Source: Bacteroidaceae bacterium (GTDB lineage Bacteria > Bacteroidota > Bacteroidia > Bacteroidales > Bacteroidaceae). From it: DNA of 56,347 bases. Where the stretch lies: contig JAGCFP010000086.1 of NCBI GenBank assembly GCA_017650045.1, positions 1 to 56,347 of the forward strand, written 5' to 3'. Below the pieces are notes generated by a model. It was not told where the DNA came from. It did not search any database and saw only the letters and a program-made list of their open reading frames with translations. The position numbers and the translations under genes were made by a program. How positions within the stretch are numbered: position 1 is the first letter of the stretch; each line of letters starts with the position of its first letter. Shown here piece by piece: positions 21,868 to 37,498 of this stretch.

Positions 21868-21898
21868 TTTGTTATACGGAATTTATTCTGTAATTTTG
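21868..21898 (+). promoter_or_regulatory. Predicted promoter of the serC operon
   Basis: TTTG (21868-21871), a 19-nt spacer and TAATTTTG (21891-21898) give a good Bacteroidetes promoter, 88 nt upstream of serC. The leader between them is A/T-rich and I see no riboswitch in it. Confidence 0.6.
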
Positions 21899-21986
21899 CA
21901 GTCGCTTGTTAGGTAAGCCTTGCAAAAAGTAAGAGAAATAAATAAAATAATATAAAATTGATTGTTTAATCAAATAAACTATCGCA

Positions 21987-23054
21987 ATGAAAAAGTATAA
22001 TTTCAACGCAGGCCCTTCTATCCTTCCACGTGAAGTGATTGAGGCTACAGCAAAGCAAATCTTAGACTTCAATGGTTCTGGTCTTTCTTTGATGGAAATT
22101 AGCCATCGCGCAAAGGATTTCCAGCCAGTAGTAGATGAAGCAGTAGCTCTTACCAAAGAGATTCTTGATATTCCTGAGGGATATTCGGTTGTTTTCCTTG
22201 GAGGTGGTGCCAGCCTTGAATTCTGTATGATACCATATAACTTCCTGGAAAAGAAGGCTGCTTACCTGAACACGGGTGTTTGGGCTAAGAAAGCTTTGAA
22301 GGAGGCTAAGTTGTTTGGTGAGACCATAGAGGTGGCCTCTTCTGCTGATGCTAATTACACTTATATCCCAAAGGGTTGGACTTGTCCTGCCGATGTGGAT
22401 TACCTGCATATAACTACTAACAATACCATCTACGGTACTGAAATTCGTAAGGATCTCGATGTACCAGTGCCAATGATTGCCGATATGTCATCTGATATCT
22501 TCAGCCGTCCTGTGGATGTGAAGAAGTACAACTGTATCTATGCTGGTGCACAGAAGAATCTGGCCATGGCAGGTGTGACTATTGTTATCGTGAAGGATGA
22601 TGCACTGGGCAAGGTTAGCCGTACTATTCCTACCATGCTCGACTATCGCACCCATGTAGAGAAGGGCTCTATGTTTAATACTCCTCCTGTGGTTCCTATC
22701 TATTCAGCTTTGGAAACATTGCGTTGGATCAAGAGAAGTGGTGGTGTAGAGGAGATGGATCGCCGAGCTAAGGAACGTGCAGAAATGCTCTATGCAGAAA
22801 TCGATCGCAACAAGATGTTCCGTGGTACAGTGGCTACAGAAGATCGTTCTCTGATGAACCTCTGCTTCGTGATGGCAGATGAGTATAAGGAGTTGGAGAA
22901 GGACTTCATGGAATTTGCCACTTCTCAGGGTATGGTAGGTGTGAAGGGTCACCGCTCAGTAGGTGGTTTCCGTGCTTCTTGCTACAATGCGCAACCTCTT
23001 GAGGGTGTGAAGGCGTTGGTAGCTTGCATGAAGGAGTTTGAAGCAAAACACTAA
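21987..23054 (+). CDS. serC: Phosphoserine aminotransferase
   Basis: PLP enzyme transferring an amino group from glutamate to 3-phosphohydroxypyruvate, and also acting in pyridoxine synthesis in many bacteria. The 355 residues begin with [11 protein letters not shown], the SerC signature. The PLP lysine is in the [12 protein letters not shown] segment (about residues 188-199), and the substrate-binding [11 protein letters not shown] is near the C-terminus. It heads a serC-serA-DUF1015 operon; serA starts 49 nt downstream. Confidence 0.96.
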
Positions 23055-23103
23055 CAGTATTATGAATTAGCACATGATTCATAATTTATAATTAATAACT
23101 CAA

Positions 23104-24021
23104 ATGAAAGTATTAGTTGCAACAGAAAAACCTTTCGCTAAGGTTGCCATTGATGGCATTCGCAGTGAAGTAGAGGCAGCTGGTCATCAGTTGGCTTTGT
23201 TGGAGAAATATACAGAGAAAGCACAGTTGCTTGATGCAGTGAAAAATGCCGATGCACTGATTATCCGTAGTGATAAAATCGATGCAGAGGTGCTGGATGC
23301 TGCCAAACAACTTCAGATAGTGGTGCGTGCTGGTGCCGGTTATGACAACGTGGACTTGGCAGCAGCTACCGCACATAAGGTAGTGGTGGAGAATACCCCA
23401 GGGCAGAATGCCAACGCTGTAGCAGAATTGGTATTTGGCTTGTTGGTCTTTGCTGTACGCAATTTCTATAATGGTAAGTCTGGAACGGAATTGCTGGGTA
23501 AGAAATTGGGTATTCTGGCATTTGGTAATGTAGGTCGTAATGTGGCACGTATCGCCAAGGGCTTTGGCATGGATGTTTATGCCTTTGATGCTTATTGTCC
23601 GAAGGAAGCCATTGAGGCTGCTGGTGTGCATGCTGTAGATTCACAGGACGCCCTTTTTGAGGTTTCTGACATCGTTTCCCTGCATATCCCAGCTACTGCT
23701 GAAACTAAGGAGAGCATCAACTATGCCTTGGTGAACAAGTTGCCTAAGGGTGGCATCTTGGTGAATACAGCCCGTAAGGAAGTCATCAACGAGCCTGAGC
23801 TGCTGAAACTGATGGCAGAGCGTACCGATTTGAAGTATGTGGCAGACATCAAACCAGATGCTGATGCTGAGTTTGCACAGTTTGAAGGTCGCTATTTCGC
23901 TACACCTAAGAAGATGGGTGCTCAGACTACTGAGGCTAATACCAATGCCGGTATTGCTGCAGCCAAGCAAATCAATGCTTACTTTGCAGAAGGTTGCACC
24001 AAGTTTCAGGTTAATAAGTAA
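23104..24021 (+). CDS. serA: D-3-phosphoglycerate dehydrogenase, short type IIIK-like form
   Basis: Oxidises 3-phosphoglycerate to 3-phosphohydroxypyruvate, feeding SerC. At 305 residues it lacks the ACT and intervening domains of long SerA, so serine feedback by ACT is not expected. The dehydrogenase folds are visible in VRAGAGYDNVDL, the NAD-binding LGILAFGNVGRNVARIAK segment and VNTARKEVINE. The usual catalytic His motif TPHxG is replaced by TPKKMGAQT (Lys 269-270), the pattern described for type IIIK enzymes such as that of Entamoeba histolytica and Bacteroides relatives. It lies 3 nt before the DUF1015 gene. Confidence 0.93.
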   Translation: MKVLVATEKPFAKVAIDGIRSEVEAAGHQLALLEKYTEKAQLLDAVKNADALIIRSDKIDAEVLDAAKQLQIVVRAGAGYDNVDLAAATAHKVVVENTPGQNANAVAELVFGLLVFAVRNFYNGKSGTELLGKKLGILAFGNVGRNVARIAKGFGMDVYAFDAYCPKEAIEAAGVHAVDSQDALFEVSDIVSLHIPATAETKESINYALVNKLPKGGILVNTARKEVINEPELLKLMAERTDLKYVADIKPDADAEFAQFEGRYFATPKKMGAQTTEANTNAGIAAAKQINAYFAEGCTKFQVNK

Positions 24022-24024
24022 GCT

Positions 24025-25269
24025 ATGAGAGTAAAACCGTTTAAAGGCATACGTCCTCCCAAGGAATTGGTGGAGTTGGTAGAGAGCCGTCCTTATGATG
24101 TGCTTGATAGTGATGAGGCCCGTGCCGAGGCAGGTGATAACGAAAAGTCGCTTTACCATATCATCAAACCAGAGATAGACTTCGAGCCTGATTGTAGTGA
24201 ATATGATCCTCGTGTCTATGAGCAGGCTGCCAAGAACTTCCAGAAGTTCCAAGACAAGGGCTGGCTGGTGCAGGATGACAAGGAACAGTATTACATCTAT
24301 GCCCAGACCATGAACGGCAAGACACAGTATGGACTGGTGGTTGGAGCATGGGTAGAAGACTATATGACTGGTCGTATCAAGAAGCATGAGCTCACCCGTC
24401 GTGACAAGGAAGAAGACCGCATGAAGCATGTACGTGTGAACAATGCCAACATCGAACCTGTATTCTTCGCTTATCCAGACAATGCAGTACTGGATGCCCT
24501 GCTAAAGCGCTATGCAACTACCGAGCCAGAATACGATTTCATTGCTCCTATTGACGGTTTCCGTCATCAGTTTTGGGTGGTAAGCGATAATGCTGATATC
24601 CAGTTGATCACAGCAGAGTTTGCTAAAATGCCTACCATGTATATCGCTGATGGACATCATCGTTCTGCTGCAGCTGCTTTGGTTGGCGCTGAGAAAGCCA
24701 AGCAGAATCCCCATCACACAGGAACAGAGGAGTACAACTATTTCATGGCTGTTTGCTTCCAAGCATCACAGCTTACCGTGCTCGACTACAACCGTGTGTT
24801 GAAGGACCTCAACGGCATGACACCTGCTCAATTCATTGAAGCGTTGAAGAAGAACTTTGTGGTGGAACTGAAGGGTAAAGATATCTATAAGCCTTCGTTC
24901 CTGCATAACTTCTCCCTATATCTTGAAGGACAGTGGTACAGCCTAACGGCCAAGTCAGGCACCTATGACGACAAAGACCCTATCGGTGTGCTAGATGTGG
25001 ATATCTCCAGTCGCCTGATTCTTGATGAACTACTTGGGATCAAGGATCTGCGTAGCAGTCAGCGCATTGATTTCGTGGGTGGTCTCCGTGGTTTGTCTGA
25101 ACTAAAGCGCCGTGTAGATAGCGGAGAGATGAAGATGGCTTTGGCCCTCTATCCTGTTTCCATGAAGCAAATCATGGATATAGCCGATAGCGGTAAGATC
25201 ATGCCTCCAAAGGCCACTTGGTTTGAACCAAAACTTCGCTCAGGATTGGTTATCCATAAGTTGGTATAA
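24025..25269 (+). CDS. DUF1015 family protein
   Basis: A 414-residue cytoplasmic protein of the DUF1015 (COG4198) family, function not established. Recognisable parts are the N-terminal VKPFKGIRPPKELVELV, YDVLDSDEARAEA and YHIIKPE, and a central IADGHHRSAAAAL (D209-R213 core) that resembles the GxxR nucleotide-binding motif of ParB/sulfiredoxin-like folds, where the serine kinase SerK also belongs. It begins 3 nt after serA, so co-translation with serine synthesis enzymes is likely. A role in serine or phosphoserine metabolism is my inference from this linkage. A strong terminator follows. Confidence 0.85.
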   Translation: MRVKPFKGIRPPKELVELVESRPYDVLDSDEARAEAGDNEKSLYHIIKPEIDFEPDCSEYDPRVYEQAAKNFQKFQDKGWLVQDDKEQYYIYAQTMNGKTQYGLVVGAWVEDYMTGRIKKHELTRRDKEEDRMKHVRVNNANIEPVFFAYPDNAVLDALLKRYATTEPEYDFIAPIDGFRHQFWVVSDNADIQLITAEFAKMPTMYIADGHHRSAAAALVGAEKAKQNPHHTGTEEYNYFMAVCFQASQLTVLDYNRVLKDLNGMTPAQFIEALKKNFVVELKGKDIYKPSFLHNFSLYLEGQWYSLTAKSGTYDDKDPIGVLDVDISSRLILDELLGIKDLRSSQRIDFVGGLRGLSELKRRVDSGEMKMALALYPVSMKQIMDIADSGKIMPPKATWFEPKLRSGLVIHKLV

Positions 25270-25290
25270 CCATTATAAATTCGATAAATC

Positions 25291-25366
25291 ATCTTCCACA
25301 ACTTCCATTTCCCACAGCATTATATTTGTGGAATCTATATGGAGGTTGTGGAAGATTTATTTTTTA
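25291..25366 (+). terminator. Terminator of the ser operon
   Basis: Long stem ATCTTCCACAACTTCCAT (25291-25308) / ATGGAGGTTGTGGAAGAT (25339-25356), 18 pairs with one G-T, capped by an inner CCACA/TGTGG helix, then TTATTTTTTATAAA. Confidence 0.88.
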
Positions 25367-25488
25367 TAAAGAGCTCTCTTCTGATTACTTTTCATCTAAC
25401 TCACGTTAAATAACAGCCAAATACAACTATCTATAATAAAAAAGAATCAATTATACACTAATTATTAAAAACATTCAGAAAATTGTTG

Positions 25489-25496
25489 TAAGTTTG
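25489..25496 (+). promoter_or_regulatory. Candidate -7 box for the glycogen/partner-switching operon
   Basis: TAAGTTTG, matching TAnnTTTG, about 90 nt before the first gene. No good TTG is seen at the -33 position, so this is a tentative call. The rest of 25367-25588 is A/T-rich with no ORF or clear structure. Confidence 0.4.
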
Positions 25497-25588
25497 TACC
25501 ACTGACGAGAACCTACATTTGTTGTGCCAGAAATCCGCATCTAAAAGATTGTATAATTGAAAGATTGAATATTAAAGAAACATTTTTT

Positions 25589-26743
25589 ATGAAGAACTGG
25601 TTTGACAATATCCGAATCTATCATCTGCTTATTGATAGATTCAATGGAGGCTGGCAGATACCACCAGCCAGTGAAAACAAATTTTGTGGTGGAAACCTTC
25701 AAGGAGTTATTGATAAACTCGACTACATCAAAGGTCTTGGTTTCACCGCCATCATGCTTTCGCCCATATTCAAGACCCAAAACTATCATGGGTATCATAC
25801 CTTGAATTTTGATGAGGTTGATCCACACTTCGGCACATGGGAAGATTATCAGCAACTGCTTGACCAGGCTCATGACAAGGGGCTGCGAATTATCTGTGAC
25901 TTTGTGCCCAACCATTGCTGGTATCAAGCTCCTCTCTTCAAAGAGAGTCTTCTTTCAAATGGCGGAAAGCACCGCGATTGGTTTTTCTATCCTAAGGAAG
26001 GTAGCGATGAGTTCGTATCGTTCCTGGGTTTTGGCGACCTGCCCAAGTTTAATCTGACGAGCCCAGAAGTCGTTCGGTTTATGATCGATAAGGCTGAGAA
26101 GCTTACACGTATGGGGGTAGATGCTTTCCGTATCGACCATGCTTTGGGACAGCCATTCAGCTTCCTGCAAAGTCTTCGTGAACAGCTACAGGACATACGC
26201 AGTGATATTGTAGTTTTCGGTGAGGTGTGGGCTCAAGGCATCGGTAAGGAGTTGGCTGGCCAACTGTATTTCAAGACGGAGAGTCGGCTGAACGAGTTTC
26301 TAACACAAGATGAAAAACCTTTCAGTCAGGACAACCTGCAGGCTGACTACGTGGGTACATTGGATGGTGTCTTGGATTTTGCCTATCGCGACATCCTCTT
26401 GGAAGAAATCCATGCAGGCCGACGCATCAAAGGGAACCAGACCTTGCGCAGCAAGATTGCTGACCATTTCGCCAAGTATCCTGCCGACTTCAAGTTGGTG
26501 CTGTTCTTGGATAATCATGACACCGACAGGTTTATGTTCGACTGTCATGACGATGTATCTTTATTGCAAGAAGCCATCGATTTGACCATGGAACTGCCTA
26601 GGCCGTTCTCTTTCCTCTATGGTACAGAGCAGCTGATGACCATCAAGTCTACCATTTTCAATGCAGAGCCATATGCTGACCTCCGTGTGCGTTGTTGCAT
26701 GGATTGGTCTCAGAAGCCAACAGTGTTGAATTTGCAGAAATAA
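25589..26743 (+). CDS. Small cytoplasmic GH13 alpha-amylase-family enzyme
   Basis: GH13 alpha-glucan hydrolase or transferase with the four conserved regions: region I DFVPNH (residues 104-109), region II DAFRIDHA with nucleophile D183, region III FGEVWA with acid/base E212, region IV FLDNHDTDR with D311. It has no signal peptide, and at 384 residues it stops soon after the barrel, so the usual C-terminal beta domain is short or missing. The frame opens at TTG 25565, but ATG 25589 (MKNWFDNIRIY) is the natural start. It is the first gene of a five-gene operon with a SpoIIE phosphatase (10 nt on), STAS protein, GlgX-type enzyme and RsbW-like kinase. An intracellular maltodextrin or glycogen substrate is likely but not proven. 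Confidence 0.85.
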   Translation: MKNWFDNIRIYHLLIDRFNGGWQIPPASENKFCGGNLQGVIDKLDYIKGLGFTAIMLSPIFKTQNYHGYHTLNFDEVDPHFGTWEDYQQLLDQAHDKGLRIICDFVPNHCWYQAPLFKESLLSNGGKHRDWFFYPKEGSDEFVSFLGFGDLPKFNLTSPEVVRFMIDKAEKLTRMGVDAFRIDHALGQPFSFLQSLREQLQDIRSDIVVFGEVWAQGIGKELAGQLYFKTESRLNEFLTQDEKPFSQDNLQADYVGTLDGVLDFAYRDILLEEIHAGRRIKGNQTLRSKIADHFAKYPADFKLVLFLDNHDTDRFMFDCHDDVSLLQEAIDLTMELPRPFSFLYGTEQLMTIKSTIFNAEPYADLRVRCCMDWSQKPTVLNLQK

Positions 26744-26753
26744 CACTTCCTTT

Positions 26754-28679
26754 ATGAAGATGCCTCTGCTTCTACGTATCCAAGAATCGCTTGCAAGCCG
26801 CATCAGCTTGTGGGTAGTTCTTTGTGTGGTGGTAATCCTTACCGCCACAGCCTTTCTTGGCAATTATTACGTGGTAAAAAGCATCAAACTCGAAGAAAGC
26901 GTAAAGGCAAACGGCATCCTCTATATCGTGGGACAACGTATTGATGCAGCACTCATCTCCGTAGAAGTTGCTGTGAGGAATCATCTCAATGACATTAAGG
27001 AGAACCTGAATGAAACTGATGAGCTCTACAGCATCACCCAAAGAATGCTTGAGGACAATCCCACCATCGTTGGTTCGGCTATCGCCTTTAAGCCTAACTA
27101 CTTCCCAGAAAAAGGGGTATGGTTTTCTCCTTACAGCTACCGGGAGGGCGGTACCATCAGATCGAAGCAGTTGGGATCAGCCGACTACGATTATCACAAG
27201 ATGGACTGGTACCAGACTACCGACTCGCTCAAGCACGACTTCTGGAGCGACCCTTACTTCGACAAGGGTGGAGGTGAGATGTTGATGACCACCTATAGTT
27301 GTCCAGTGACAGACGAGGCGGGTAACTTCATCGCAGTGGTCACTGCTGATATCTTGCTCGATGATCTGTCAAAGTTGTTGGATGTGGATTATTACGAAAA
27401 TGCTTATGCCTGCATGATAGGTCGTAGTGGCACTTTCATCTCGCACCCCATCAAAGATCTGGTACTCCAGCAAAATGTTTTCAAAATTGCTAAGGAGATG
27501 GGGCATCCTGAACTGATAGAGGTGGCCCAAGAGATGATTGATGGAAAGAGCGGCATGCGGAAGTGGCATTCACCCACGTTTGGTGATTCCTATATCTTCT
27601 TTGTGCCTTTCGAACACACGGGTTGGTCGATGGCCATTGTATGTAAAGCCTCTGAACTGTTCAAGGGAGTACGTAAAACTGAACTGTTTTTGGTGGTCCT
27701 GTTTATCCTAATGCTGGTGTTGCTTACCTACATCTTGTGGCGGAGTGTGCATCGTCTCATTGCCCCACTCACTGCGTTTGCCCAAGCTGCAGACGAGGTG
27801 GCACAAGGTAATCTTCAAGCCATGCTTCCCGATGTCCGTTCCAAGGACGAGATGCAACGGCTGCACCATTCATTCAGTATCATGCAACAGTCACTGGTCA
27901 GCCAGATGGAGGAACTGAAACAAGTGAACGAGGCTAAGGGTCGTATAGAAGGGGAGTTGAAAGTGGCCAGAGACATTCAGCTTTCGATGTTGCCAAAAGT
28001 TTATACCCCTACTGCTTACGGCAAAGATTTGGATATCTATGGTCAACAGATTTCTGCCAAGGAGGTGGGTGGTGACCTTTATGATTTCTTCATTCGTGAT
28101 GAGAAACTGTTCTTCTGCATTGGCGATGTCTCTGGTAAGGGTGTACCTGCAGCCTTGGTGATGGCAATGACGTTGAGCCAGTTCCGCAATGTGGTCAGTT
28201 ATGAAAACGATTTGGAGAAAATAATCAAGTCCATTAATAAGAATACGTGTGATGGTAATGATGCCTCTATGTTTGTAACCTTCTTCGTGGGTGTACTGGA
28301 CTTGCCTACGGGATTATTGAATTATTGTAATGCAGGGCACAATAAACCGTTTATCGTCACCGATATCATCACTGAACTACCCGCAAAGCCCGACCTGCCT
28401 TTGGGTGTTTCCGAGGAGGCAGGCTATGTTGTAAGGGAATATACTGTGCCGCCAGGAGCGATGTTGTTCCTCTATACCGATGGACTGACCGAAGCCATGA
28501 ACGGACAGCGTGAGCTATTTGGTCGCGAGCGACTCATAGACAATCTGAAGAACGAAGAAGACTGCAAGAGTCTGATAGAAAAGATGATCCAGGCGGTTCA
28601 CCAGTTTGTGGACAACGCCTCCCAGAGCGACGACCTCACCATGCTGGCCATACGCTCCATCGTTTCTCAAAAAAGATAG
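26754..28679 (+). CDS. Membrane sensor phosphatase: Cache, HAMP and SpoIIE (PP2C) domains
   Basis: RsbU/RsbP-type serine/threonine phosphatase expected to dephosphorylate a STAS anti-anti-sigma protein. The 641 residues hold a TM helix (about 18-40), an extracytoplasmic Cache-type sensor (about 45-305, with WYQTT, FWSDPYFD and MLMTTYSCPV), a second TM helix (about 308-330), HAMP (about 330-385), a short coiled linker, and a SpoIIE PP2C domain (about 420-640) with metal-site motifs EVGGDLYDFF and GDVSGKGVPAALVM. The likely target, the STAS gene, begins 10 nt after it. The ligand is unknown, but the Cache domain implies a small periplasmic molecule. Confidence 0.92.
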   Translation: MKMPLLLRIQESLASRISLWVVLCVVVILTATAFLGNYYVVKSIKLEESVKANGILYIVGQRIDAALISVEVAVRNHLNDIKENLNETDELYSITQRMLEDNPTIVGSAIAFKPNYFPEKGVWFSPYSYREGGTIRSKQLGSADYDYHKMDWYQTTDSLKHDFWSDPYFDKGGGEMLMTTYSCPVTDEAGNFIAVVTADILLDDLSKLLDVDYYENAYACMIGRSGTFISHPIKDLVLQQNVFKIAKEMGHPELIEVAQEMIDGKSGMRKWHSPTFGDSYIFFVPFEHTGWSMAIVCKASELFKGVRKTELFLVVLFILMLVLLTYILWRSVHRLIAPLTAFAQAADEVAQGNLQAMLPDVRSKDEMQRLHHSFSIMQQSLVSQMEELKQVNEAKGRIEGELKVARDIQLSMLPKVYTPTAYGKDLDIYGQQISAKEVGGDLYDFFIRDEKLFFCIGDVSGKGVPAALVMAMTLSQFRNVVSYENDLEKIIKSINKNTCDGNDASMFVTFFVGVLDLPTGLLNYCNAGHNKPFIVTDIITELPAKPDLPLGVSEEAGYVVREYTVPPGAMLFLYTDGLTEAMNGQRELFGRERLIDNLKNEEDCKSLIEKMIQAVHQFVDNASQSDDLTMLAIRSIVSQKR

Positions 28680-28689
28680 AATAAACGAA

Positions 28690-29004
28690 ATGAATATGAA
28701 TATAGACAATTATCAATTAGGTGAAGAGCTGGATTCTTTCAACTACCAGCAAGTACAAGAAGATATTCTGGCTATTCTGGAGAGAGGTTGCAGTGCGGTG
28801 CTTGATATGACTGCCTGCAAATACGTTTCCAGTACAGGTTTGCGTGTTTTACTCTATTCCAAGAAAGTGGCAGCCTCCAAGGGATTGAAGCTTTATTTGG
28901 TCGGCATGAGTGATGAAGTCAAAGACATCATGGAAGTCACAGGCTTCGATAGTTTCTTCGATTCTTTCAAAACCATGGAAGAATGTCTTGAGAATGTCAA
29001 ATAG
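28690..29004 (+). CDS. STAS-domain anti-sigma factor antagonist
   Basis: A 104-residue single STAS domain of the SpoIIAA/RsbV type. VLDMTACKYVSSTGLRVLLYSKK aligns with the phosphorylation loop of RsbV (DSTGL): Ser48 or Thr49 is the predicted phosphosite. The open frame runs further upstream inside the phosphatase gene, but ATG 28690, 10 nt after its stop, gives a clean STAS N-terminus. Unphosphorylated STAS proteins bind the partner kinase and free its target. The phosphatase lies upstream and the kinase two genes downstream, so a full partner switch is encoded here. Confidence 0.92.
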   Translation: MNMNIDNYQLGEELDSFNYQQVQEDILAILERGCSAVLDMTACKYVSSTGLRVLLYSKKVAASKGLKLYLVGMSDEVKDIMEVTGFDSFFDSFKTMEECLENVK

Positions 29005-29019
29005 CATAAAGGTGGAACG

Positions 29020-31140
29020 ATGCAAAGAGTTGATTTATTTCCTACACATGAGTACCAAGGATTGAAGTTGCGTGCAGGCAGACCATATCCATTTGGGGCA
29101 ACGGTCATAGGTAATGCGGTTAACTTTTCAGTGTATTCCCGCTATGCCACCGACTGTACGTTGGTACTTTTTCACAATCGTGAAGAGAAACCATTTATTG
29201 AGATTCCTTTCTTCAAGGAGTTCAGGTTGGGTAATGTGTTCTCGATGATGGTTTTCGACTTGGATTATGAAAACATTGAATACGGTTACCGAATGGATGG
29301 TCCTTTCCAACCGGAAGAAGGCCATCGTTTTGATAAGTCAAAAATACTATTAGATCCCTATGCCAAATTAATCGTGGGTCGTGATGTGTGGGGGCAGCAG
29401 CCCAATTGGGACAAACTATACCAATATCGTGCCCGTGTGGTATTTGACGACTTTGACTGGGAGAACGACCAGCCATTGGAAACGCCTGTCAACGACCTTA
29501 TCGTCTATGAGATGCATGTGCGCAACTTCACGTGCGGTCCAGCTTCTGGTGTGAAACACAGAGGAACGTTTGCTGGCATCAGTGAAAAGATACCCTATCT
29601 CCTTGAACTGGGTGTTAATTGTGTAGAGCTGATGCCCATCCATGAGTTCGACGAGTTTGAAAACTCTAAGCCCTCACCTGTAGACGGCCACATGCTATAC
29701 AACTTATGGGGTTACAGCAACGTGGGATTTTTTGCCCCCAAAGCTGCTTACGCCTCGTCAGGAAGGTTCAGTATGCAGGTGGATGAGTTGAAGAACCTTG
29801 TGAAGCGACTGCATGCCAACGGCATTGAGGTGATACTCGATGTGGTGTTCAACCACACGGCAGAAGGCAACGAGAAAGGTCCTTATATTTCCTATCGTGG
29901 CATCGACAATAAGACCTATTATATGCTGACCCCCGACGGTTATTACTATAACTTCAGTGGCTGTGGCAATACGCTGAACTGCAACAATCCCAATGTGCGC
30001 GATATGATTGTGGAAAGCCTGCGTTACTGGGTAACTGACTATCATATAGATGGTTTCCGCTTTGATTTGGCTGCCATCTTGGGACGCGACCAAAATGGTT
30101 ATCCCATGTCGAATCCACCATTGCTTGAATCGCTGGCCCACGACCCGATTCTCGGCAAGACAAAACTGATAGCCGAGGCTTGGGATGCTGGTGGCCTCTA
30201 TCAGGTAGGTTCGTTTCCTTCGTGGGGACGCTGGGCCGAGTGGAATGGTAAGTTCCGCGACAGCATACGTCGCTTCCTTAAGAGTGATGAACAGGTGTTG
30301 GCCGATGTGAAGGAGCGTATCATTGGCTCACCTGATCTTTACGCTTCACAAAAACGAGGCATCAAGGCCAGTGTGAATTTCGTCACTGCACACGACGGTT
30401 TCACTCTGATGGACATGGTGTCTTATAATGACAAGCATAACGAAGCCAATGGTGAAGGGAACCGTGATGGTGAGAACCACAATAACAGCTGGAACTGTGG
30501 CTGCGAGGGTGAGACCAATGATCCAGGTATCAACTACCTTCGCCACCAGCAAGTGAAGAACGCCATCTCACTGCTCATGGTGAGTCAGGGTATTCCAATG
30601 GTTCTTTCAGGCGATGAGATGGGCAACTCTCAACAAGGCAATAACAATGCTTATTGTCAGGACAATGAAATTGCTTGGCTTGATTGGAACAATCTGGAGA
30701 AGAATGCCGACATCTTCCGTTATTTCAAGCTGATGATTAAATTCCGACGGTTGCATAAAGTGCTTCGCTATGAGGATCATCTGAGCCATAGCGACTATCG
30801 CAACCTTGGCTATCCAGACTTTTCGTGGCATGGTGTGAAAGCTTGGCAACCCGAAAGTGGTTATAACAATCTTACTACTGCTTTTATGCTGAACGGCCAA
30901 TATGCCGAGACCGATGGTGTGGCAGATGATTTCATATATGTGGCAATGAACATGCATTGGGAGATGCACGGCTTTGAGTTGCCTATGTTGCCTCAAGGTA
31001 TGACTTGGCACATATTCGCTAATACTGGGATGCCATCTCCAGAGGACATTTTCGAACCAGGAAAGGAACCAATAATTGATAACCAACGTGAAGTGCTGGT
31101 TGGCCCACGTTCCATCATCATTTTAGTGGGGAGGGAATAA
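29020..31140 (+). CDS. glgX: Glycogen debranching enzyme, GlgX/isoamylase type
   Basis: GH13 enzyme hydrolysing alpha-1,6 branches of glycogen or amylopectin, 706 residues, no signal peptide. An N-terminal CBM48-like domain (about residues 15-120, with PFGATVIGNAVNFSVYSRYA) precedes the barrel. Catalytic regions are visible: region I DVVFNHTAEG, region II IDGFRFDLAAILG with the nucleophile Asp, region III IAEAWDAGGLYQVG and region IV TAHDGF. The GEGNRDGENHNNSWN segment is typical of isoamylase/GlgX proteins. It sits between the STAS gene (15 nt upstream) and the kinase gene (2 nt downstream), so it is physically embedded in the regulatory module. Confidence 0.93.
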   Translation: MQRVDLFPTHEYQGLKLRAGRPYPFGATVIGNAVNFSVYSRYATDCTLVLFHNREEKPFIEIPFFKEFRLGNVFSMMVFDLDYENIEYGYRMDGPFQPEEGHRFDKSKILLDPYAKLIVGRDVWGQQPNWDKLYQYRARVVFDDFDWENDQPLETPVNDLIVYEMHVRNFTCGPASGVKHRGTFAGISEKIPYLLELGVNCVELMPIHEFDEFENSKPSPVDGHMLYNLWGYSNVGFFAPKAAYASSGRFSMQVDELKNLVKRLHANGIEVILDVVFNHTAEGNEKGPYISYRGIDNKTYYMLTPDGYYYNFSGCGNTLNCNNPNVRDMIVESLRYWVTDYHIDGFRFDLAAILGRDQNGYPMSNPPLLESLAHDPILGKTKLIAEAWDAGGLYQVGSFPSWGRWAEWNGKFRDSIRRFLKSDEQVLADVKERIIGSPDLYASQKRGIKASVNFVTAHDGFTLMDMVSYNDKHNEANGEGNRDGENHNNSWNCGCEGETNDPGINYLRHQQVKNAISLLMVSQGIPMVLSGDEMGNSQQGNNNAYCQDNEIAWLDWNNLEKNADIFRYFKLMIKFRRLHKVLRYEDHLSHSDYRNLGYPDFSWHGVKAWQPESGYNNLTTAFMLNGQYAETDGVADDFIYVAMNMHWEMHGFELPMLPQGMTWHIFANTGMPSPEDIFEPGKEPIIDNQREVLVGPRSIIILVGRE

Positions 31141-31142
31141 TA

Positions 31143-31553
31143 ATGAGTGAATTACATTTCCAACCTATCAAAGGACAGGCTCGCATCATACTCAGGGCTA
31201 TCTTGCAGACACCAGAGGTCTCTTCTTGCCATCTGAAGGAGGTTTTAGTCATCCGACTGGCTTGCGAGGAAATAGTCATGAATGTGGCGTCCTATGCCTA
31301 CCCTGAAGGTACCGATGGTTATTTGGATGTGGAAATTGAAAAGACCGACCGTATTATTATCCGTTTCAAAGATGGTGGTTTGCCTTTCAACCCTCTGGAA
31401 CAGAAAAAGCCGGATACCAACTTGTCATGGAAACAACGACACATTGGTGGGCTTGGCATCTTTCTCGTTACTAGGAAGATGGATGATGTCCGCTATGCTT
31501 ATGTGGATAATGAGAATGTGTTGACAATCGAAAAGGTTATAAAAGCGGACTGA
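31143..31553 (+). CDS. RsbW-like anti-sigma factor serine/threonine kinase
   Basis: A 136-residue GHKL ATPase of the SpoIIAB/RsbW type. The N box is LACEEIVMNVASYAYP (about residues 39-54, with Glu and Asn for Mg-ATP), G1 is FKDGGLPFNPL (about 77-87) and G2 is HIGGLGIFLVTRKMD (about 100-114). Such kinases phosphorylate their STAS antagonist and sequester a sigma factor or other output protein. The start is 2 nt after glgX. No sigma factor gene is adjacent, so the output partner is unknown. Confidence 0.92.
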   Translation: MSELHFQPIKGQARIILRAILQTPEVSSCHLKEVLVIRLACEEIVMNVASYAYPEGTDGYLDVEIEKTDRIIIRFKDGGLPFNPLEQKKPDTNLSWKQRHIGGLGIFLVTRKMDDVRYAYVDNENVLTIEKVIKAD

Positions 31554-31559
31554 ATCTCT

Positions 31560-31590
31560 GCATAAGAATAAGTAAACATATTTTGTGTTG
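31560..31590 (+). repeat. Copy 1 of a 31-nt intergenic element
   Basis: Begins GCATAAGAATAAGTAAACAT and ends TTGTGTTG; 27 of 31 positions match the sequence at 37468-37498 upstream of valS. The core AATAAGTAAAC-(A/T)-TATT is close to palindromic. It occupies most of the 47-nt gap before the YigZ-family gene. Confidence 0.6.
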
Positions 31591-31600
31591 AAATAAGAAT

Positions 31601-32212
31601 ATGGACGATAGCTACAAGACCATAGCCGCCCGCAGTGAAGGACTCTACACGGAGAAACGCAGCAAGTTCATTGCGATGGCCATCCCAGTACGAACACTAG
31701 ATGACGTGAAAGAAGAACTGGCTGCCATTAATAAGAAGTACTATGATGCTCGTCATGCTTGCTATGCCTATGTGCTTGGACCTGAGCGTAAGGACTACCG
31801 TGCCAATGACAATGGGGAACCTTCAGGTACGGCTGGGCGTCCGATACTTGGACAAATCAACTCGTTGGAGCTGACGGATATCCTTTTGGTAGTAGTACGC
31901 TATTTTGGGGGTATCAAGTTGGGTACCAGTGGACTCTATGCAGCCTATAAAGAAGCTGCTGCTGAGGCTTTGCAGACAGCAGTGATTATTGATAAAACTG
32001 TCGATGAAGATATCTCTTTCCGCTTTGAATATCCTTTTATGAACGATGTGATGCGCATTGTAAAGGAGGAGGAGCCAGAACTGGTAGGCCAAGGCTTTGA
32101 AGGCGATTGCCTCATGACTCTCCGCATTCGTCGCTCAATGATGCCACGTCTGAAAGCAAGACTGGAAAAGGTAGAAACGCTTAGTTTCCTTTCCGATGCT
32201 CCCAAGCCATAA
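31601..32212 (+). CDS. YigZ/IMPACT family protein
   Basis: A 203-residue member of the YigZ (UPF0029, IMPACT N-terminal) family. Signature segments are RSKFIAMAIPV near the N-terminus, ARHACYAYVLG, NDNGEPSGTAGRPIL and VVRYFGGIKLGTSGL. The C-terminal about 70 residues form the second ferredoxin-like domain. Eukaryotic IMPACT affects Gcn2 signalling; the bacterial role is unclear. Its last 32 nt overlap the 3' end of the convergent DUF3810 gene. Confidence 0.92.
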   Translation: MDDSYKTIAARSEGLYTEKRSKFIAMAIPVRTLDDVKEELAAINKKYYDARHACYAYVLGPERKDYRANDNGEPSGTAGRPILGQINSLELTDILLVVVRYFGGIKLGTSGLYAAYKEAAAEALQTAVIIDKTVDEDISFRFEYPFMNDVMRIVKEEEPELVGQGFEGDCLMTLRIRRSMMPRLKARLEKVETLSFLSDAPKP

Positions 32213-33254
32213 GCAGCGCCACTACTTGTGAATAGTTTTTACGACCACCTTCAACACGATGGCTGCGCAGATAGAGGTCGTATATACGGTCTTGAATATT
32301 ACCCAGTATAGGACTGTAGCGATCTATCCAGTACGACTGGCGGATATTTACCAAACGTCGTATCTCAGGGCGCACTTGTTTCAGTAAGTTAGCATACTGA
32401 CTTTCACCCATCAACTTGCGGACATTATTCATCAGATGACTGAAAACGGAAAGCATACCGCTGAAATGTATTTCAGGAACCTCGGAATTGATACATGCCA
32501 GATAAGCGTAAAAGTTGGCTTCTCCCTCACTGGTGATGCCATAGAGATGTGATAGTTCATGGGCATAAATGGCAGGGTAGTCCACAGGCAGCACCTCTCT
32601 ATTTATGGTAAATTCTCCGAAGAAAGGCCCCATACTTCCCGTTACGCCAACCATGGAAGCCAATCTGCTGATAAGCATGGTTTTTATCTGTGGATTATCT
32701 ACAAAAGGGCGATTAATGCCGATTTCTTGATAGATTGATTCATAGCTTTTTATGATTTCTTGTTTAACCTGTTCTTTAGATATGTCTTCCACTTCTACAT
32801 AGGCATCGTTTAGCTGATGAATATAGTTGCTAACGTATGCTCCTAAGGTGTTGTATGAATACTCTACATACGCTGTTCCAGTACGTAAGTAGAAATTGTC
32901 TTGCCAGTAATTCAGTCCCCAAGCTGTGTAGAACCAAGCATACAACCAGAGTATGGATTCGACGATGTTGAAGCTTACTTTCAATTTTTTCTGTTTAAGG
33001 AAGAAGATGCTAATGATAGGATAGGTAAGTAATAGACCTATGAGAATAAGGTACCACACGTCGCTAATACTGTAACGAATGTTCCCTGTAATGGATGAGA
33101 GAAAGCCTCCTATGGTAGGGTATAGTTTACGTGCATACCATTCTCCCGCTCCGTCGATAAGTTGGAAAAGCCACACCGCCACCAGCCATATAGCCAGTAT
33201 GTAATGCCTCAGACTAAACTCTATTATTCTATATTTTTGCTTTTTCTTTGCCAT
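32181..33254 (-). CDS. DUF3810 membrane protein with HExxH motif
   Basis: A 357-residue protein resembling the Bacteroidetes DUF3810 family. N-terminal TM helices are visible (about residues 13-35, 55-80 and 90-110). The soluble C-terminal half carries AIYAHELSHLYGI with a complete HExxH zinc motif, followed 14 residues later by EANFYAYLAC, a plausible third ligand. It is therefore a candidate membrane-anchored metalloprotease, though no member I know of has an assigned substrate. It converges on the YigZ gene with a 32-nt coding overlap, and diverges from the ABC transporter gene. Confidence 0.85.
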   Translation of the reverse strand: MAKKKQKYRIIEFSLRHYILAIWLVAVWLFQLIDGAGEWYARKLYPTIGGFLSSITGNIRYSISDVWYLILIGLLLTYPIISIFFLKQKKLKVSFNIVESILWLYAWFYTAWGLNYWQDNFYLRTGTAYVEYSYNTLGAYVSNYIHQLNDAYVEVEDISKEQVKQEIIKSYESIYQEIGINRPFVDNPQIKTMLISRLASMVGVTGSMGPFFGEFTINREVLPVDYPAIYAHELSHLYGITSEGEANFYAYLACINSEVPEIHFSGMLSVFSHLMNNVRKLMGESQYANLLKQVRPEIRRLVNIRQSYWIDRYSPILGNIQDRIYDLYLRSHRVEGGRKNYSQVVALLMAWEHRKGN

Positions 33255-33302
33255 ATTCTTTGCGAAGATACTGAAGAATTGAAATTATCCCAAATAAAAT
33301 AC

Positions 33303-33310
33303 TAACTTTG
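33303..33310 (+). promoter_or_regulatory. Candidate -7 box of the ABC transporter gene
   Basis: TAACTTTG, matching TAnnTTTG, 91 nt upstream of the start at 33402. It lies in the 147-nt divergent intergenic region. Confidence 0.45.
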
Positions 33311-33401
33311 CGGTATAAAAGTGCGAAGCAACTTGGGCATGATTAATGACAACAGGTTACCTTTGCTCTTATAGTATGATAATAATTGACAGAAGCTAAA
33401 T

Positions 33402-35237
33402 ATGGAAACAAAGAAAACTACTGAAACCACTCCCACGAGCAAGATGAATATCTTGGACTTGCTCAAGAATATTCTTCCGTTTGTCCTACCATACAAATGG
33501 CTTATCGCTGCCACGGTGACCCTTACTTTCATTGGCTCCCTCATGGCACAGGTAAATGCTGTGGTTCTGGACAAGACGGTAGATGCGATCAATGCCTTGA
33601 TACAGACCCCTAATTTTGCATGGGACAAGGCTACACAGATACTTATCACTATCAGTATCATTCTGTTGGGTAAGGAAGTGCTCTCGATGGTTATTACGTT
33701 CTTTCAGCGCTATTTTGGTGAGAAAATGCGTATCTTGGTAAGCCGTGATCTTGCAGTGAAGGTTATAGACCGTATGCTGTCTTTCCGCATGGCCTTTTTC
33801 TCTTCAGAGGGGAATGAGACAGGTAAATTACAGTCGCGAATAGATCGAGGCATCATGAGCCTCAGTAGTACGGTGAACAATTTCTTTATTGAAATTTTGC
33901 CACTTTTTACCAGTGCTATTTTGGCCCTGGCGCTGATGTTTATGGCTAATGTGTATGTTGGATTAGTGGCATTATGTATCGTACCCATTTATTTCTACGT
34001 AACTTATGTTCAAGCTAAGCGAATGAAGGGAGGGCGCCGTAGTATCTTTGGTAGTCATCAGGCTGTAAGCCAGGGGATTCTGAATATTATTGAAAGTATC
34101 ACTGTAATTAAATCCTTCAATCGTGAAGTCATAGAATCCAAGCGCCAGGAGGCCATCCAGCAACAGATGACCGACCAGCAACTCAACATCCGTAAGCAGA
34201 GTTATATGTTCAATGGTCTAAAGAGTTTCTTGGAACAGATTGGTACCGTGCTTATCATTATCCTGACGGCCTACTTGGTTCTGATAGATTATCCAGGTAT
34301 GACCATTGGTAAGATTATGTACCATGTGATGCTTTTTAGCAATGTCAGTGCTCCTATCCGCCAACTTCACCGCATCTACGATGATATGAATGATGCACTG
34401 ATTTATGCTGAGGGATTCTTTGGCATTCTGCATGCTGACCATGAGGTAGAAGATAGTGGTAAGCATCATCCGCAGTCGGTGAAGGGCGACTTTGTGCTCC
34501 AAGGTGTGGACTTTACTTACAGCAATGGCACACAGGCACTCTTTGGGGTGGATATGCATATTGAACCTGGTAAAATCACGGCGTTGGTTGGATTGAGTGG
34601 TGCAGGAAAAAGTACCGTGGTCAACCTGCTCGACAAGTTCTATCATCCCGATACTGGAAGTATCAAGTTGGATGGTGTGGATCTGAGCGACTGGGATACT
34701 CAGTGGCTCCGCGAACATATTGGCTTAGTTTTGCAGAAAAACCATATTTTCAGTGGCAGTATCGAAGAGAATATCAAGTATGGTAACCCAGAAGCTACGC
34801 ATGAAGAAGTGATGGAGGCTGCAAAGCAGGCTTATATCTATGATCAGGTTATGCAACTGCCTGATGGCTTTGAAACCAGCGCTCTGCAACTCAGTGGTGG
34901 TCAGCAACAACGTGTGGCCATTGCTCGCATGTTCCTTAAGAATCCACCTATTATCTTCCTCGATGAACCAACAGCAAGTCTTGATGCCATCGCTACTGAG
35001 CAAATCAAGGCAAGTATAGATGCCATTAAGGCAGGGCGCACGGTGATTATCATTTCGCACAACATTGGCCAGATTATCGATGCCGATACCATCTATGTGC
35101 TGCAGCAAGGTAGGGTAGTGCAGAGTGGTAAACCAGATGAGGTTTACCGTCAGGGTGGTGCTTATAAGGAGATTCTTGATGCCAGTGCCCGTAGCATGAA
35201 TGTCGATAAGATAGCCAGTGTGATGGAAGAAGCATAA
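33402..35237 (+). CDS. ABC exporter, fused permease and ATPase
   Basis: A 611-residue half-transporter of the MsbA/MDR type. The N-terminal half has about six TM helices (roughly residues 25-330, including LPYKWLIAATVTLTFIGSL). The C-terminal nucleotide-binding domain has Walker A VGLSGAGKST (about 400-409), a Q-loop in GLVLQKNHIFSG, signature LSGGQQQRVAIAR, Walker B IIFLDEP and H-loop IISHN. The substrate could be a lipid, drug or peptide and is not readable. It works as a homodimer, since no partner half is adjacent. A SpoIIE phosphatase gene follows after 130 nt with its own promoter box. Confidence 0.92.
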   Translation: METKKTTETTPTSKMNILDLLKNILPFVLPYKWLIAATVTLTFIGSLMAQVNAVVLDKTVDAINALIQTPNFAWDKATQILITISIILLGKEVLSMVITFFQRYFGEKMRILVSRDLAVKVIDRMLSFRMAFFSSEGNETGKLQSRIDRGIMSLSSTVNNFFIEILPLFTSAILALALMFMANVYVGLVALCIVPIYFYVTYVQAKRMKGGRRSIFGSHQAVSQGILNIIESITVIKSFNREVIESKRQEAIQQQMTDQQLNIRKQSYMFNGLKSFLEQIGTVLIIILTAYLVLIDYPGMTIGKIMYHVMLFSNVSAPIRQLHRIYDDMNDALIYAEGFFGILHADHEVEDSGKHHPQSVKGDFVLQGVDFTYSNGTQALFGVDMHIEPGKITALVGLSGAGKSTVVNLLDKFYHPDTGSIKLDGVDLSDWDTQWLREHIGLVLQKNHIFSGSIEENIKYGNPEATHEEVMEAAKQAYIYDQVMQLPDGFETSALQLSGGQQQRVAIARMFLKNPPIIFLDEPTASLDAIATEQIKASIDAIKAGRTVIIISHNIGQIIDADTIYVLQQGRVVQSGKPDEVYRQGGAYKEILDASARSMNVDKIASVMEEA

Positions 35238-35277
35238 ATTTCACTGTTGCAGATGTATCAATGTATCGTTTTTTCAT

Positions 35278-35285
35278 TATCTTTG
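35278..35285 (+). promoter_or_regulatory. -7 box of the second SpoIIE phosphatase gene
   Basis: TATCTTTG, 82 nt before the chosen start at 35368. No TTG is seen at the ideal -33 distance. Confidence 0.5.
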
Positions 35286-35367
35286 CACCCAAATATCTGC
35301 TATAAGGCATTATCTATGATAATGGGGAGATATCAAGTATTGATTGGAGTTTAATTTTAGAGAGAAT

Positions 35368-37143
35368 ATGAAGCTGGATTTAAAGGATAAGACGAGTATA
35401 GCCATCATTGCTATTGCGGCTATCTTGTTGGAAGCCACTTCGTTTATACAGTATTGGTATTCACGCGAAGGGATCCGTGCTGAAGTTGTGCATCGTGCAC
35501 AGACTGAGCTGAAGGTGAAAAGCCTAACCATTAAGAATGCCACGCTGGAAGTAGAAACGGCCGCAAGAAATATGATGTGGGTTGTGGAAGAGAATCTCCA
35601 ATATCCAGATTCCATGTATTCTGTCATCCGTCGCTTGTTGAACAACAATCCAGATATTTTAGGATGTGGCATAACTTTCAAGCCCAATTATTATAAATCT
35701 AAAGGTTATTGGTATGAGCCTTATGGAGCCAGACGTGAAAATGGAGTCATTGAAACGACTCAATTAGCGGGTGAGAATCACGATTATACTAAGAGCGAGT
35801 TCTATACAGTGCCAATGCAGACTGGTCAGCCACAATGGTCAGAACCTTATCTCGACAGTGATGGTGCTCGTGCAATGCTCACTACTTATTCGCTCCCAAT
35901 ACACGATAGTAATGGAGAGATTGTGGGAATCATGGGACTTGATGTTTCTCTGGATTGGATGAATGAATACCTCAATTCGCAGCGTATTTATCCCTCCTCT
36001 TACAATATCGTGATATCTCGAAAGGGACAATTGATGGTGGCTCCTGTCGAAAGTTTGACAATGCGATATACGGTTCAGGAACTTGCCACTGTGCTTGAAG
36101 ATACTACCTACGACGTCATCAACAATGCAATGATGGCAGGTGAGAGCGGACAATCGTCTGTAATCGACAATGAAGGAGAGAAAAACTATGTATTCTATGG
36201 TCCAATAGAGGGAAATACGGGTTGGTCAATGGCTGTTGTCGCATTGGATAAGGATATCTATTCCAGCCTTCGTCACATTGCCTTCGTCCTGTTTATCTTG
36301 ATGTTGGTGGGTTTGCTCCTTATCGGAATAATCCTGAATCGTTCAGCAAAGAGTTTCCGTCGTCTCCAGCATGCAAATGCTGAGAAAGAGCGCATTGGTA
36401 GTGAGTTGCGTATCGCAAGTGGCATTCAGCGTGGCATGCTCCCAAGAATATTCCCTCCATATCCTGAAAGAAATGACATTGATGTGTTTGCTTTCCTGGA
36501 TTCAGCCAAGGAGGTGGGTGGCGACCTCTTCGATTTCTATATCCGTGATGAGAAATTGTTCTTCTGTATTGGTGACGTGAGTGGCAAGGGAGTACCAGCC
36601 TCACTTGTGATGGCAGTAACTCGTTCTTTATTCCGTACCATTTCCGCCCATCAGGAAAGAGTTGGATTAATAGTGCAAGACATGAACAATGCCATGTCTG
36701 AGATGAATGAAGACAATATGTTCGTTACCTTCTTTATAGGTAAGCTCGACCTTGCTACTGGTTTGCTCCAATATTGTAATGCTGGGCATTGTGTTCCATT
36801 GCTGGTAGGTCATGGCGTAGAGAAGATGGAGGTGAGCCCCAACATACCTTTGGCTCTTGTGAACGGTTGGGATTTTGAAGAACAAGAGATCAAACTGAAA
36901 CCTAAGACTACGGTCTTCCTTTATACAGACGGACTTATTGAGGCAGAGGATGTGTCCAAGCGCCTGTTTGGTGAAGAACGTATGATAGAGGAAGTTCAAA
37001 AAGCCTTGGATAAGGGAAATAGTGGGGCAGAACCACTAATCAAGAGTCTGGATGCTGCTGTGAAGCATTTCGTTGGTGGGGCACAACAGAGTGACGACCT
37101 TACCATGCTGGCAGTGAAGTATTTGAAGGAAGATTTGGCTTAG
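35368..37143 (+). CDS. Second membrane sensor phosphatase: Cache and SpoIIE domains
   Basis: A 591-residue paralogue of the phosphatase at 26754. A TM helix (about residues 10-30), a Cache-type extracytoplasmic sensor (about 35-290, with FYTVP, WSEPYLD and MLTTYSLPI), a second TM helix (about 300-320) and a C-terminal SpoIIE PP2C domain (about 375-590) with EVGGDLFDFY and GDVSGKGVPASLVM are visible. Unlike the first copy it has only a short linker between TM2 and the phosphatase, with no recognisable HAMP domain. The frame opens at TTG 35344; ATG 35368 (MKLDLKDKTSIAI) is preferred. No STAS or kinase gene is adjacent, so it may act on the STAS protein at 28690; that is inference. Confidence 0.9.
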   Translation: MKLDLKDKTSIAIIAIAAILLEATSFIQYWYSREGIRAEVVHRAQTELKVKSLTIKNATLEVETAARNMMWVVEENLQYPDSMYSVIRRLLNNNPDILGCGITFKPNYYKSKGYWYEPYGARRENGVIETTQLAGENHDYTKSEFYTVPMQTGQPQWSEPYLDSDGARAMLTTYSLPIHDSNGEIVGIMGLDVSLDWMNEYLNSQRIYPSSYNIVISRKGQLMVAPVESLTMRYTVQELATVLEDTTYDVINNAMMAGESGQSSVIDNEGEKNYVFYGPIEGNTGWSMAVVALDKDIYSSLRHIAFVLFILMLVGLLLIGIILNRSAKSFRRLQHANAEKERIGSELRIASGIQRGMLPRIFPPYPERNDIDVFAFLDSAKEVGGDLFDFYIRDEKLFFCIGDVSGKGVPASLVMAVTRSLFRTISAHQERVGLIVQDMNNAMSEMNEDNMFVTFFIGKLDLATGLLQYCNAGHCVPLLVGHGVEKMEVSPNIPLALVNGWDFEEQEIKLKPKTTVFLYTDGLIEAEDVSKRLFGEERMIEEVQKALDKGNSGAEPLIKSLDAAVKHFVGGAQQSDDLTMLAVKYLKEDLA

Positions 37144-37217
37144 AAGTTGTCATAGCTGCAGATATAATATGCAGCATAGAGAGATAAAACCTGCCGTTTA
37201 GTGGGACAAACTTTAAT

Positions 37218-37254
37218 CAGCAGTGGTGACTATATAGTTGCCACTGCTGTTTAT
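37218..37254 (+). terminator. Hairpin after the second SpoIIE gene, possible terminator
   Basis: CAGCAGTGGTGACT (37218-37231) pairs with AGTTGCCACTGCTG (37236-37249) around a four-base loop, with two G-T pairs, followed by TTTATA. The stem is strong but the T-run is short. Confidence 0.5.
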
Positions 37255-37467
37255 ATAATCACCACTTCTGATTATACAGACAGCAGTGCCAATTAACTTT
37301 TACCTTGGCTATCAGAAGGGTTTTTCTGGTGGTTCTTTTATCTTTTGGTATGCTTGAAACGGATAAATAGATGAAGTTTACCTCCAGCATTACGATACTT
37401 CTTTTGGCTTTTTTACGTTCTTTTTTGTCTTGCTTTCTTTACTGTTGCTAAAATAGGCTGCTTCTCA

Positions 37468-37498
37468 GCATAAAAATAAGTAAACTTATTTTGTTCTG
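37468..37498 (+). repeat. Copy 2 of the 31-nt intergenic element
   Basis: Matches 31560-31590 at 27 of 31 positions. It contains the near-palindrome AATAAGT-AA-ACTTATT (37475-37490) and lies 15 nt before the valS -7 box, so it covers the -33 region of that promoter. Confidence 0.6.

Follow-up and report, generated by a model that had tools for sequence, protein, structure and literature searches.

The window analyzed here, a stretch of 56,347 nucleotides (nt) from a Bacteroidaceae bacterium of the rumen Prevotella type (contig JAGCFP010000086.1), contains a five-gene cluster in which the components of a partner switch (a SpoIIE-type phosphatase, a STAS switch protein, and an RsbW-like kinase) are interleaved with a GH13 alpha-glucan hydrolase and the glycogen debranching enzyme GlgX. 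We infer, with a probability of roughly 0.55, that this is a partner switch whose output includes GlgX. The linkage of the switch with GlgX across several phyla and their fusion in two relatives suggest an action of the switch on the enzyme itself, beyond gene expression alone. The parts of the cluster are the following.

25493 to 25521, + strand: promoter-like motif of the Bacteroidetes type, TTTG-N17-TACATTTG, a pattern match 67 nt ahead of the GH13 start
25589 to 26743, + strand: GH13 alpha-glucan hydrolase, barrel only, 384 aa; no signal peptide seen by eye
26754 to 28679, + strand: membrane sensor phosphatase with dCache, HAMP, and SpoIIE domains (Pfam/NCBIfam), 641 aa
28690 to 29004, + strand: STAS switch protein (STAS1) of the anti-sigma-antagonist type, 104 aa when read from its ATG (28690)
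28831 to 28833, + strand: codon of Ser48, the predicted STAS phosphosite, placed by alignment of STAS1 rows
29020 to 31140, + strand: GlgX, an isoamylase-type glycogen debranching enzyme (CBM48, GH13, and C domain) of the STAS-linked clade, 706 aa
31143 to 31553, + strand: RsbW-like GHKL serine kinase (HATPase_c_2), 136 aa, a homolog of the domain that ends the GlgX-RsbW fusions at their C terminus

The five genes are separated by gaps of 10, 10, 15, and 2 nt; this layout had been given in a preliminary description of the DNA and is correct to the base. The GH13 open reading frame (ORF) could also open at a TTG at 25565 and the STAS ORF at a TTG at 28606; the ATG codons at 25589 and 28690 were taken as starts. 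Searches against Pfam and NCBIfam gave an Alpha-amylase match for the GH13 protein (6e-47), SpoIIE (3e-49) and MCP-like_PDC_1 (2e-31) together with dCache_1 and HAMP for the phosphatase, STAS for the switch protein (3e-18), and HATPase_c_2 for the kinase (3e-16), for which the RsbW equivalog models remained far under their cut-offs (34 of 155 bits). The set of switch proteins is therefore complete, as had been described. GlgX scored 692.7 bits with TIGR02100, above the curated cut-off of 640.9, and the motifs FRFDLA, AEAWDA, and TAHDGFT, which we take to be its catalytic motifs, were seen by eye. Its own genome (an assembly that is 77% complete) gave no second match at 1e-60, and the same holds for five other Bacteroidota genomes (G466-G470).

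A single transcript starting at GH13 is likely from the promoter-like motif, whose Bacteroidetes-type consensus is presumed. The pattern has nine matches in the window (two of them overlapping) versus 1.28 expected in shuffles, and the one at 25493 to 25521 is the sole + strand match from 21868 to 37490. The next gene downstream (31601 to 32212, UPF0029/YigZ-like) begins 47 nt past the cluster and does not adjoin the cluster in the relative L054.

Conservation was examined in 80 loci, the best 80 of 583 confirmed GlgX relatives from a contig search with the window GlgX; most of these records are metagenome-assembled genomes (MAGs), whose organism titles may be wrong. The exact order of the window was found in 10 of the 80 (L062, L063, L065, L073, L083, L085, L091, L125, L128, and L132), although in L073 SpoIIE is in pieces. 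The same five genes in the same order, at 80 to 93% identity and with different flanking genes, were also found in a genome of the same genus (G081, locus L054). An arrangement unique to one strain can thus be set aside.

In 75 of the 80 loci, the STAS1 gene lies ahead of GlgX, uninterrupted by further module genes and at a spacing that reaches about 400 nt (L138). This includes all 11 loci from outside the Bacteroidota, which by title belong to Omnitrophota (4), Elusimicrobia (2), cyanobacteria (4), and Clostridia (1). An RsbW-like gene, fusions counted, is present in the cluster in 64 of the 80. STAS and GlgX, mostly with the kinase, are the most constant part of the cluster. In the Clostridia MAG (L136:7652-10277), the STAS-GlgX pair stands alone and overlapping, with the phosphosite serine kept.

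This linkage follows one lineage of the enzyme. With GlgX at 55% identity or more to that of the window, STAS was found upstream in 95 of 102 loci (repeats counted); the other seven are L105, L107, L108, and L127 (627 nt of upstream sequence), L126 (300 nt), and L153 and L155 (none). In a sample of the phylum, GlgX matched at 1e-60 in 53 of 296 genomes, and loci were obtained for 30 matches, one of them the window. Among the other GlgX proteins, at most 51% identical to that of the window, STAS was within reach in 0 of 26 loci, 25 of which have at least 900 nt upstream. When 61 chosen GlgX rows were placed in a maximum-likelihood tree, all STAS-linked rows formed one clade (support 100/99), with two departures from the linkage, namely L105/L107/L108 and the two fusions (L126 and L127).

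Two mutually exclusive types of cluster were observed, a GH13 type (47/80) and an epimerase type with the order AGE-STAS1-GlgX-STAS2 (24/80), with neither enzyme in the remaining 9 loci. A second STAS gene downstream of GlgX is present in all 24 epimerase-type loci and in none of the 47 GH13-type loci, and 10 of the 11 loci from outside the Bacteroidota are of the epimerase type. In L112, Pfam searches confirmed the epimerase, STAS, DJ-1, and a receiver-SpoIIE protein. In L140 they confirmed the epimerase, STAS, the kinase, receiver-GAF-SpoIIE, and DJ-1, and also a glyoxalase-like gene, all within the cluster or close to it. Taken together, these gene orders and Pfam results make the window cluster a rearranged descendant or cousin of this wider cluster. 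The epimerase-like protein has about 600 aa and matches GlcNAc-2-epimerase over part of its length (L112:5808-7682, L140:5621-7444, and L240:6224-8035); in several phyla, it and the DJ-1/PfpI protein form part of this cluster type.

The input side of the switch is far more variable. The phosphatase is dCache-HAMP-SpoIIE in the window, HAMP-SpoIIE in L101, receiver-SpoIIE in L112, receiver-GAF-SpoIIE in L140, and part of a fusion of kinase, cyclic-nucleotide-binding domain, and SpoIIE in L130 and L137; its position and presence also vary between clusters. The inputs have been swapped while STAS-GlgX, mostly with the kinase, persists. The two fusions with an RsbW-like kinase are single ORFs inside icfG-type clusters of Omnitrophota (L130:10455-12053 and L137:10451-12085). 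In L085, L091, L101, L125, L128, and L132, the phosphatase has only about 390 aa, retaining the start and HAMP-SpoIIE and lacking the Cache part (Pfam was checked on L101 only), which amounts to a natural deletion of the sensor.

Switch and enzyme were found joined in two MAGs from horse gut, Candidatus Cryptobacteroides equifaecalis E4_MB2_98 (L126) and Bacteroidales Horse_feces75 (L127), where an ORF of 852 aa joins GlgX to an RsbW-like kinase. The GlgX part is 72% and the kinase part 37 to 39% identical to the window proteins, the ATP-site motifs of the kinase are kept (by eye), and a SpoIIE gene overlaps and follows the fusion ORF. The two fusions have equal length and 84% DNA identity over GlgX, with a synonymous divergence (dS) of 1.1 to 1.7. 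The ratio of nonsynonymous to synonymous divergence is 0.05 for GlgX, 0.02 for the junction, and 0.09 for the kinase; the fusion is under purifying selection. No start codon common to L126 and L127 was found at the junction. The STAS protein of these genomes is encoded in a separate epimerase-STAS-DJ-1 locus, with the serine kept (L240 and L241).

An AlphaFold2 model of the fusion (mean predicted local distance difference test 84.3, predicted template modeling score 0.81) separates the last strand of GlgX from the first strand of the kinase by three residues; the alignment behind it holds few kinase rows. Matches of the model in the PDB mostly span residues 14 to 709, with 7u3a as the top row, and a phmmer search of the kinase against the PDB returned SenB alone (5e-5). 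The fusion suggests that kinase and enzyme may work together physically.

These observations are consistent with the following scheme, in which the physical interactions, like the direction of control, are all deduced from domains, families, and gene neighborhoods. The Cache domain of the membrane phosphatase would sense a small extracytoplasmic ligand and set the activity of SpoIIE. Unphosphorylated STAS would capture the kinase, as is known for the partner-switch family. At plentiful ATP and low phosphatase activity, the kinase would phosphorylate Ser48 of STAS. This residue sits at the STAS phosphosite position, which is serine in all 94 aligned STAS1 rows (13 of these repeat loci already in the alignment, and the STAS of L157 is not included). 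Phosphorylation of STAS by the kinase has been reported, in excerpted accounts, for Slr1856 and Slr1861 of Synechocystis. The main new proposal is that the alternative partner of the kinase would be GlgX, with the kinase probably docked at or near the GlgX C terminus. The phosphorylation state of STAS would then set the debranching of stored alpha-glucan, as activation or inhibition. In the rumen Prevotella-type group, whose cluster has gained a short GH13 and lacks DJ-1, the epimerase, and the second STAS, one signal would set both debranching and cleavage of the released chains, since GH13 has joined the operon.

A more specific version of the scheme has in our view about even odds. In it, a metabolic enzyme is the direct client: the kinase clamps or activates GlgX, kinase-phosphorylated STAS releases GlgX, kinase and enzyme form one polypeptide in some bacteria, and any sigma output, cyanobacteria included, is one of two. 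Partner switching would then extend from transcription to direct control of carbon-store mobilization, the isoamylase of the cyanobacterial icfG cluster would be an effector and more than a neighbor, giving that cluster a concrete one, and the rumen and gut Bacteroidales would gain a candidate pathway from sensor to glycogen. With the natural fusion, a single purified protein plus STAS would suffice for a direct test.

Several observations weigh against an output through GlgX. The fusion is rare, being present in 2 of 398 sampled genomes of its family, both related MAGs, in 1 of 81 genomes in the genus of G474, and in none of the seven genomes, the window's own among them, that gave a match in a sample of 393 from the order; moreover, a fusion of adjacent genes may be neutral. 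No kinase is present in the cluster in 16 of the 80 loci (three at a contig end, three being lone-GlgX loci), and no kinase match at 1e-8 was found in the genome of L136. Two of the three L105/L107/L108 genomes hold GH13-SpoIIE-STAS-RsbW apart from GlgX (L238 and L239, the kinase match in L239 containing a stop), and the L105 genome has only distant STAS and kinase matches. Neither STAS-GlgX nor kinase-GlgX is therefore obligatory as a pair of neighbors. In addition, GlgB was not over its cut-off in the genome of the window (best 235.8 of 463.95 bits), so that stored glycogen is putative there; three Glyco_transf_5 matches there were above theirs.

Pairwise distances, compared in 22 loci with all four ORFs and with no species tree as control, were mixed: no excess for STAS-GlgX (partial r −0.10, p 0.78), a weak one for STAS-RsbW (0.14, p 0.16), and excesses for GlgX-RsbW (0.36, p 0.003) and, larger, GH13-GlgX (0.63, p 0.0005). 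This mixed outcome counts among the points against the enzyme output and was not used as support. Clade-specific residues of GlgX were likewise discarded as a docking map. They occupy 40 of 279 conserved positions (16/49 in residues 1 to 145, 20/212 in 146 to 600, and 4/18 in 601 to 706), six of them in columns almost empty in the outgroup; no interface is drawn from them, and L105, L107, and L108, where GlgX has parted from STAS, retain them, bar one position in one row.

The preliminary description left the kinase output as either a sigma factor or an enzyme. An enzyme output is plausible given the natural GlgX-kinase fusion, and a sigma output is its serious rival, if a somewhat unlikely one: the kinase would be the anti-sigma factor of a primary or extracytoplasmic function (ECF) sigma factor encoded elsewhere, and glgX would be co-transcribed through shared physiology. 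Slr1861 is reported, in an excerpt of the source, to control the RNA polymerase-SigC holoenzyme and to phosphorylate Ssr1600 (PMC12329169), which counts for the sigma output and against an output through GlgX. So does L069, where the strand opposite the kinase carries an ECF-like ORF that begins some 40 nt past it. Searched with the SigBFG model, the genome of the window also gave several short matches of the ECF-like kind and a longer one of the sigma-70 type (112 bits). None of its matches reaches the TIGR02980 cut-off for SigB/F/G (best 112.1 of 234.35 bits in this 77% complete assembly). With eight protein queries from the same genome, no sigma-like ORF was found in the window, in agreement with what had been noted, nor in 77 of the 80 loci, many of which are cut by contig ends; in the other three (L069, L079, and L096) none lies within a cluster. 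No sigma factor belongs to the cluster, and the lack of a sigma-like ORF in the clusters and of SigB/F/G over cut-off fits an output at the level of the enzyme. A sigma output, moreover, leaves unexplained both the fusion and the persistence of GlgX beside STAS.

STAS itself could be the effector, with its unphosphorylated form binding GlgX directly and the kinase and phosphatase merely setting its phosphorylation. We consider this quite unlikely. STAS-GlgX is the most constant pair (75/80 versus 64/80 with a cluster kinase) and persists with no neighboring kinase in, for example, L081, L093, L095, L101, L103, L129, and L136. Yet the fusion partner of GlgX is the kinase: among 128 loci (repeats counted), only L126 and L127 have a further module domain in the GlgX frame, and STAS is in that frame in none. 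The lack of a STAS-GlgX distance correlation points the same way. A passive linkage, in which a mobile cluster carries a switch and enzymes that are functionally unconnected, would account for the differing flanks and the patchy distribution. It seems highly improbable, given a linkage held across phyla in one GlgX clade despite turnover of gene order, input domains, and extra enzymes, and a fusion kept under purifying selection.

The GH13 enzyme has a different history. An ortholog was found in only 2 of 149 sampled genomes of the genus, its own genome being one of the two, and the distribution of the cluster is accordingly patchy. Among the 80 loci, GH13 is restricted to one rumen Prevotella-type group, never occurs together with the epimerase and second STAS, and is absent from the 11 loci outside the Bacteroidota. 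As an ancient partner it was rejected; it is a late addition to the cluster. The earlier proposal of an ancient co-regulation of both enzymes consequently finds support for GlgX, through its linkage in several phyla, and none for GH13. The short GH13 keeps its catalytic motifs, and its bare barrel is nearest to enzymes of the neopullulanase/cyclomaltodextrinase type, both ends being poorly modeled. From its family, it may act in shortening debranched chains. Genomes G009 and G074 hold a 44% identical GH13 relative that is not within such a cluster. Relatives at this identity with 631 aa (L055:2255-4150 and L056:9167-11062) have about 260 extra N-terminal residues, which matched no Pfam family (Pfam run on L055).

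Other proteins of the same kinds are present in this genome. A second dCache-SpoIIE phosphatase with no HAMP match (window 35344 to 37143, + strand, 599 aa) lies 3.8 kb downstream of the cluster, is about 35% identical to the cluster phosphatase, and has no STAS or kinase gene noticed alongside. In two proteins of about 747 aa (L059:7137-9380 and L060:6753-8993), dCache-SpoIIE and an RsbW-like HATPase form one chain; tblastn gave the RsbW match in each, and Pfam was run on L060 alone. The L060 fusion, with matches to STAS and to an ECF-like sigma factor nearby, is a possible crosstalk partner.

The cluster had been put forward as an undescribed system, which it is not. The operon slr1852-1862 of Synechocystis PCC 6803, in excerpts of two papers (PMC12329169 and PMC8670252), holds the icfG cluster with the putative anti-sigma antagonist slr1856, the isoamylase slr1857, slr1859 of the same type as slr1856, the phosphatase IcfG (slr1860), and the kinase slr1861; Slr1855 is called an N-acetylglucosamine 2-epimerase. 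An excerpted paper relates from earlier work (PMC11619594) that the kinase substrate of choice is Slr1856 and that cells lacking Slr1859 are impaired in growing with glucose when inorganic carbon is low. The window cluster likewise brings together STAS, isoamylase/GlgX, a SpoIIE-type phosphatase, and an RsbW-like kinase, with STAS directly upstream of GlgX. Cyanobacterial loci carry AGE-STAS1-GlgX-STAS2 clusters with SpoIIE, and the matching set of Oscillatoria (L140) has the order AGE-STAS-GlgX-STAS-kinase-SpoIIE. In the 61-row tree, which does not include slr1857, the GlgX of Oscillatoria and other cyanobacteria falls in the STAS-linked clade with that of the window. A cloning primer for slr1857, from an excerpt of PMC4911114, reads M-E-R-I-D, a weak fit to the N terminus of the clade, as most outgroup rows lack those columns and three of the four with column 3 also have Arg. 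In contrast, the window cluster lacks the second STAS (the slr1859 position), the epimerase-like gene, and DJ-1; it has gained a GH13, its phosphatase is of the Cache-HAMP type, and its genes are ordered differently. The resemblance to IcfG, drawn before as an analogy, extends to homology of the GlgX clade and its neighborhood. The window cluster is thus best described as a Bacteroidota offshoot, a variant of the icfG-type cluster and not a member, for want of the epimerase and of the second STAS.

RsbU-RsbV-RsbW and SpoIIE-SpoIIAA-SpoIIAB are partner switches acting on sigma factors. The window matches them in its full set of protein types and in the conserved position of the phospho-Ser; unlike these switches, its cluster has no cognate sigma factor and is interleaved with genes of metabolic enzymes. 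In the open-license literature, no tie of partner switching to GlgX was found outside Synechocystis. A precedent for direct signal control is the GlgX of Streptomyces venezuelae, a debranching enzyme of the same fold that, according to an excerpt of PMC9530166, is activated by cyclic di-GMP; the effector there is a small molecule, whereas a partner-switch protein is proposed for the window cluster. Relative to these systems, the kind of cluster is already known, and what is new here, as evidence that GlgX belongs to the output of the switch, is the GlgX-RsbW fusion, the clade-wide linkage of STAS with GlgX, and the swapped phosphatase inputs.

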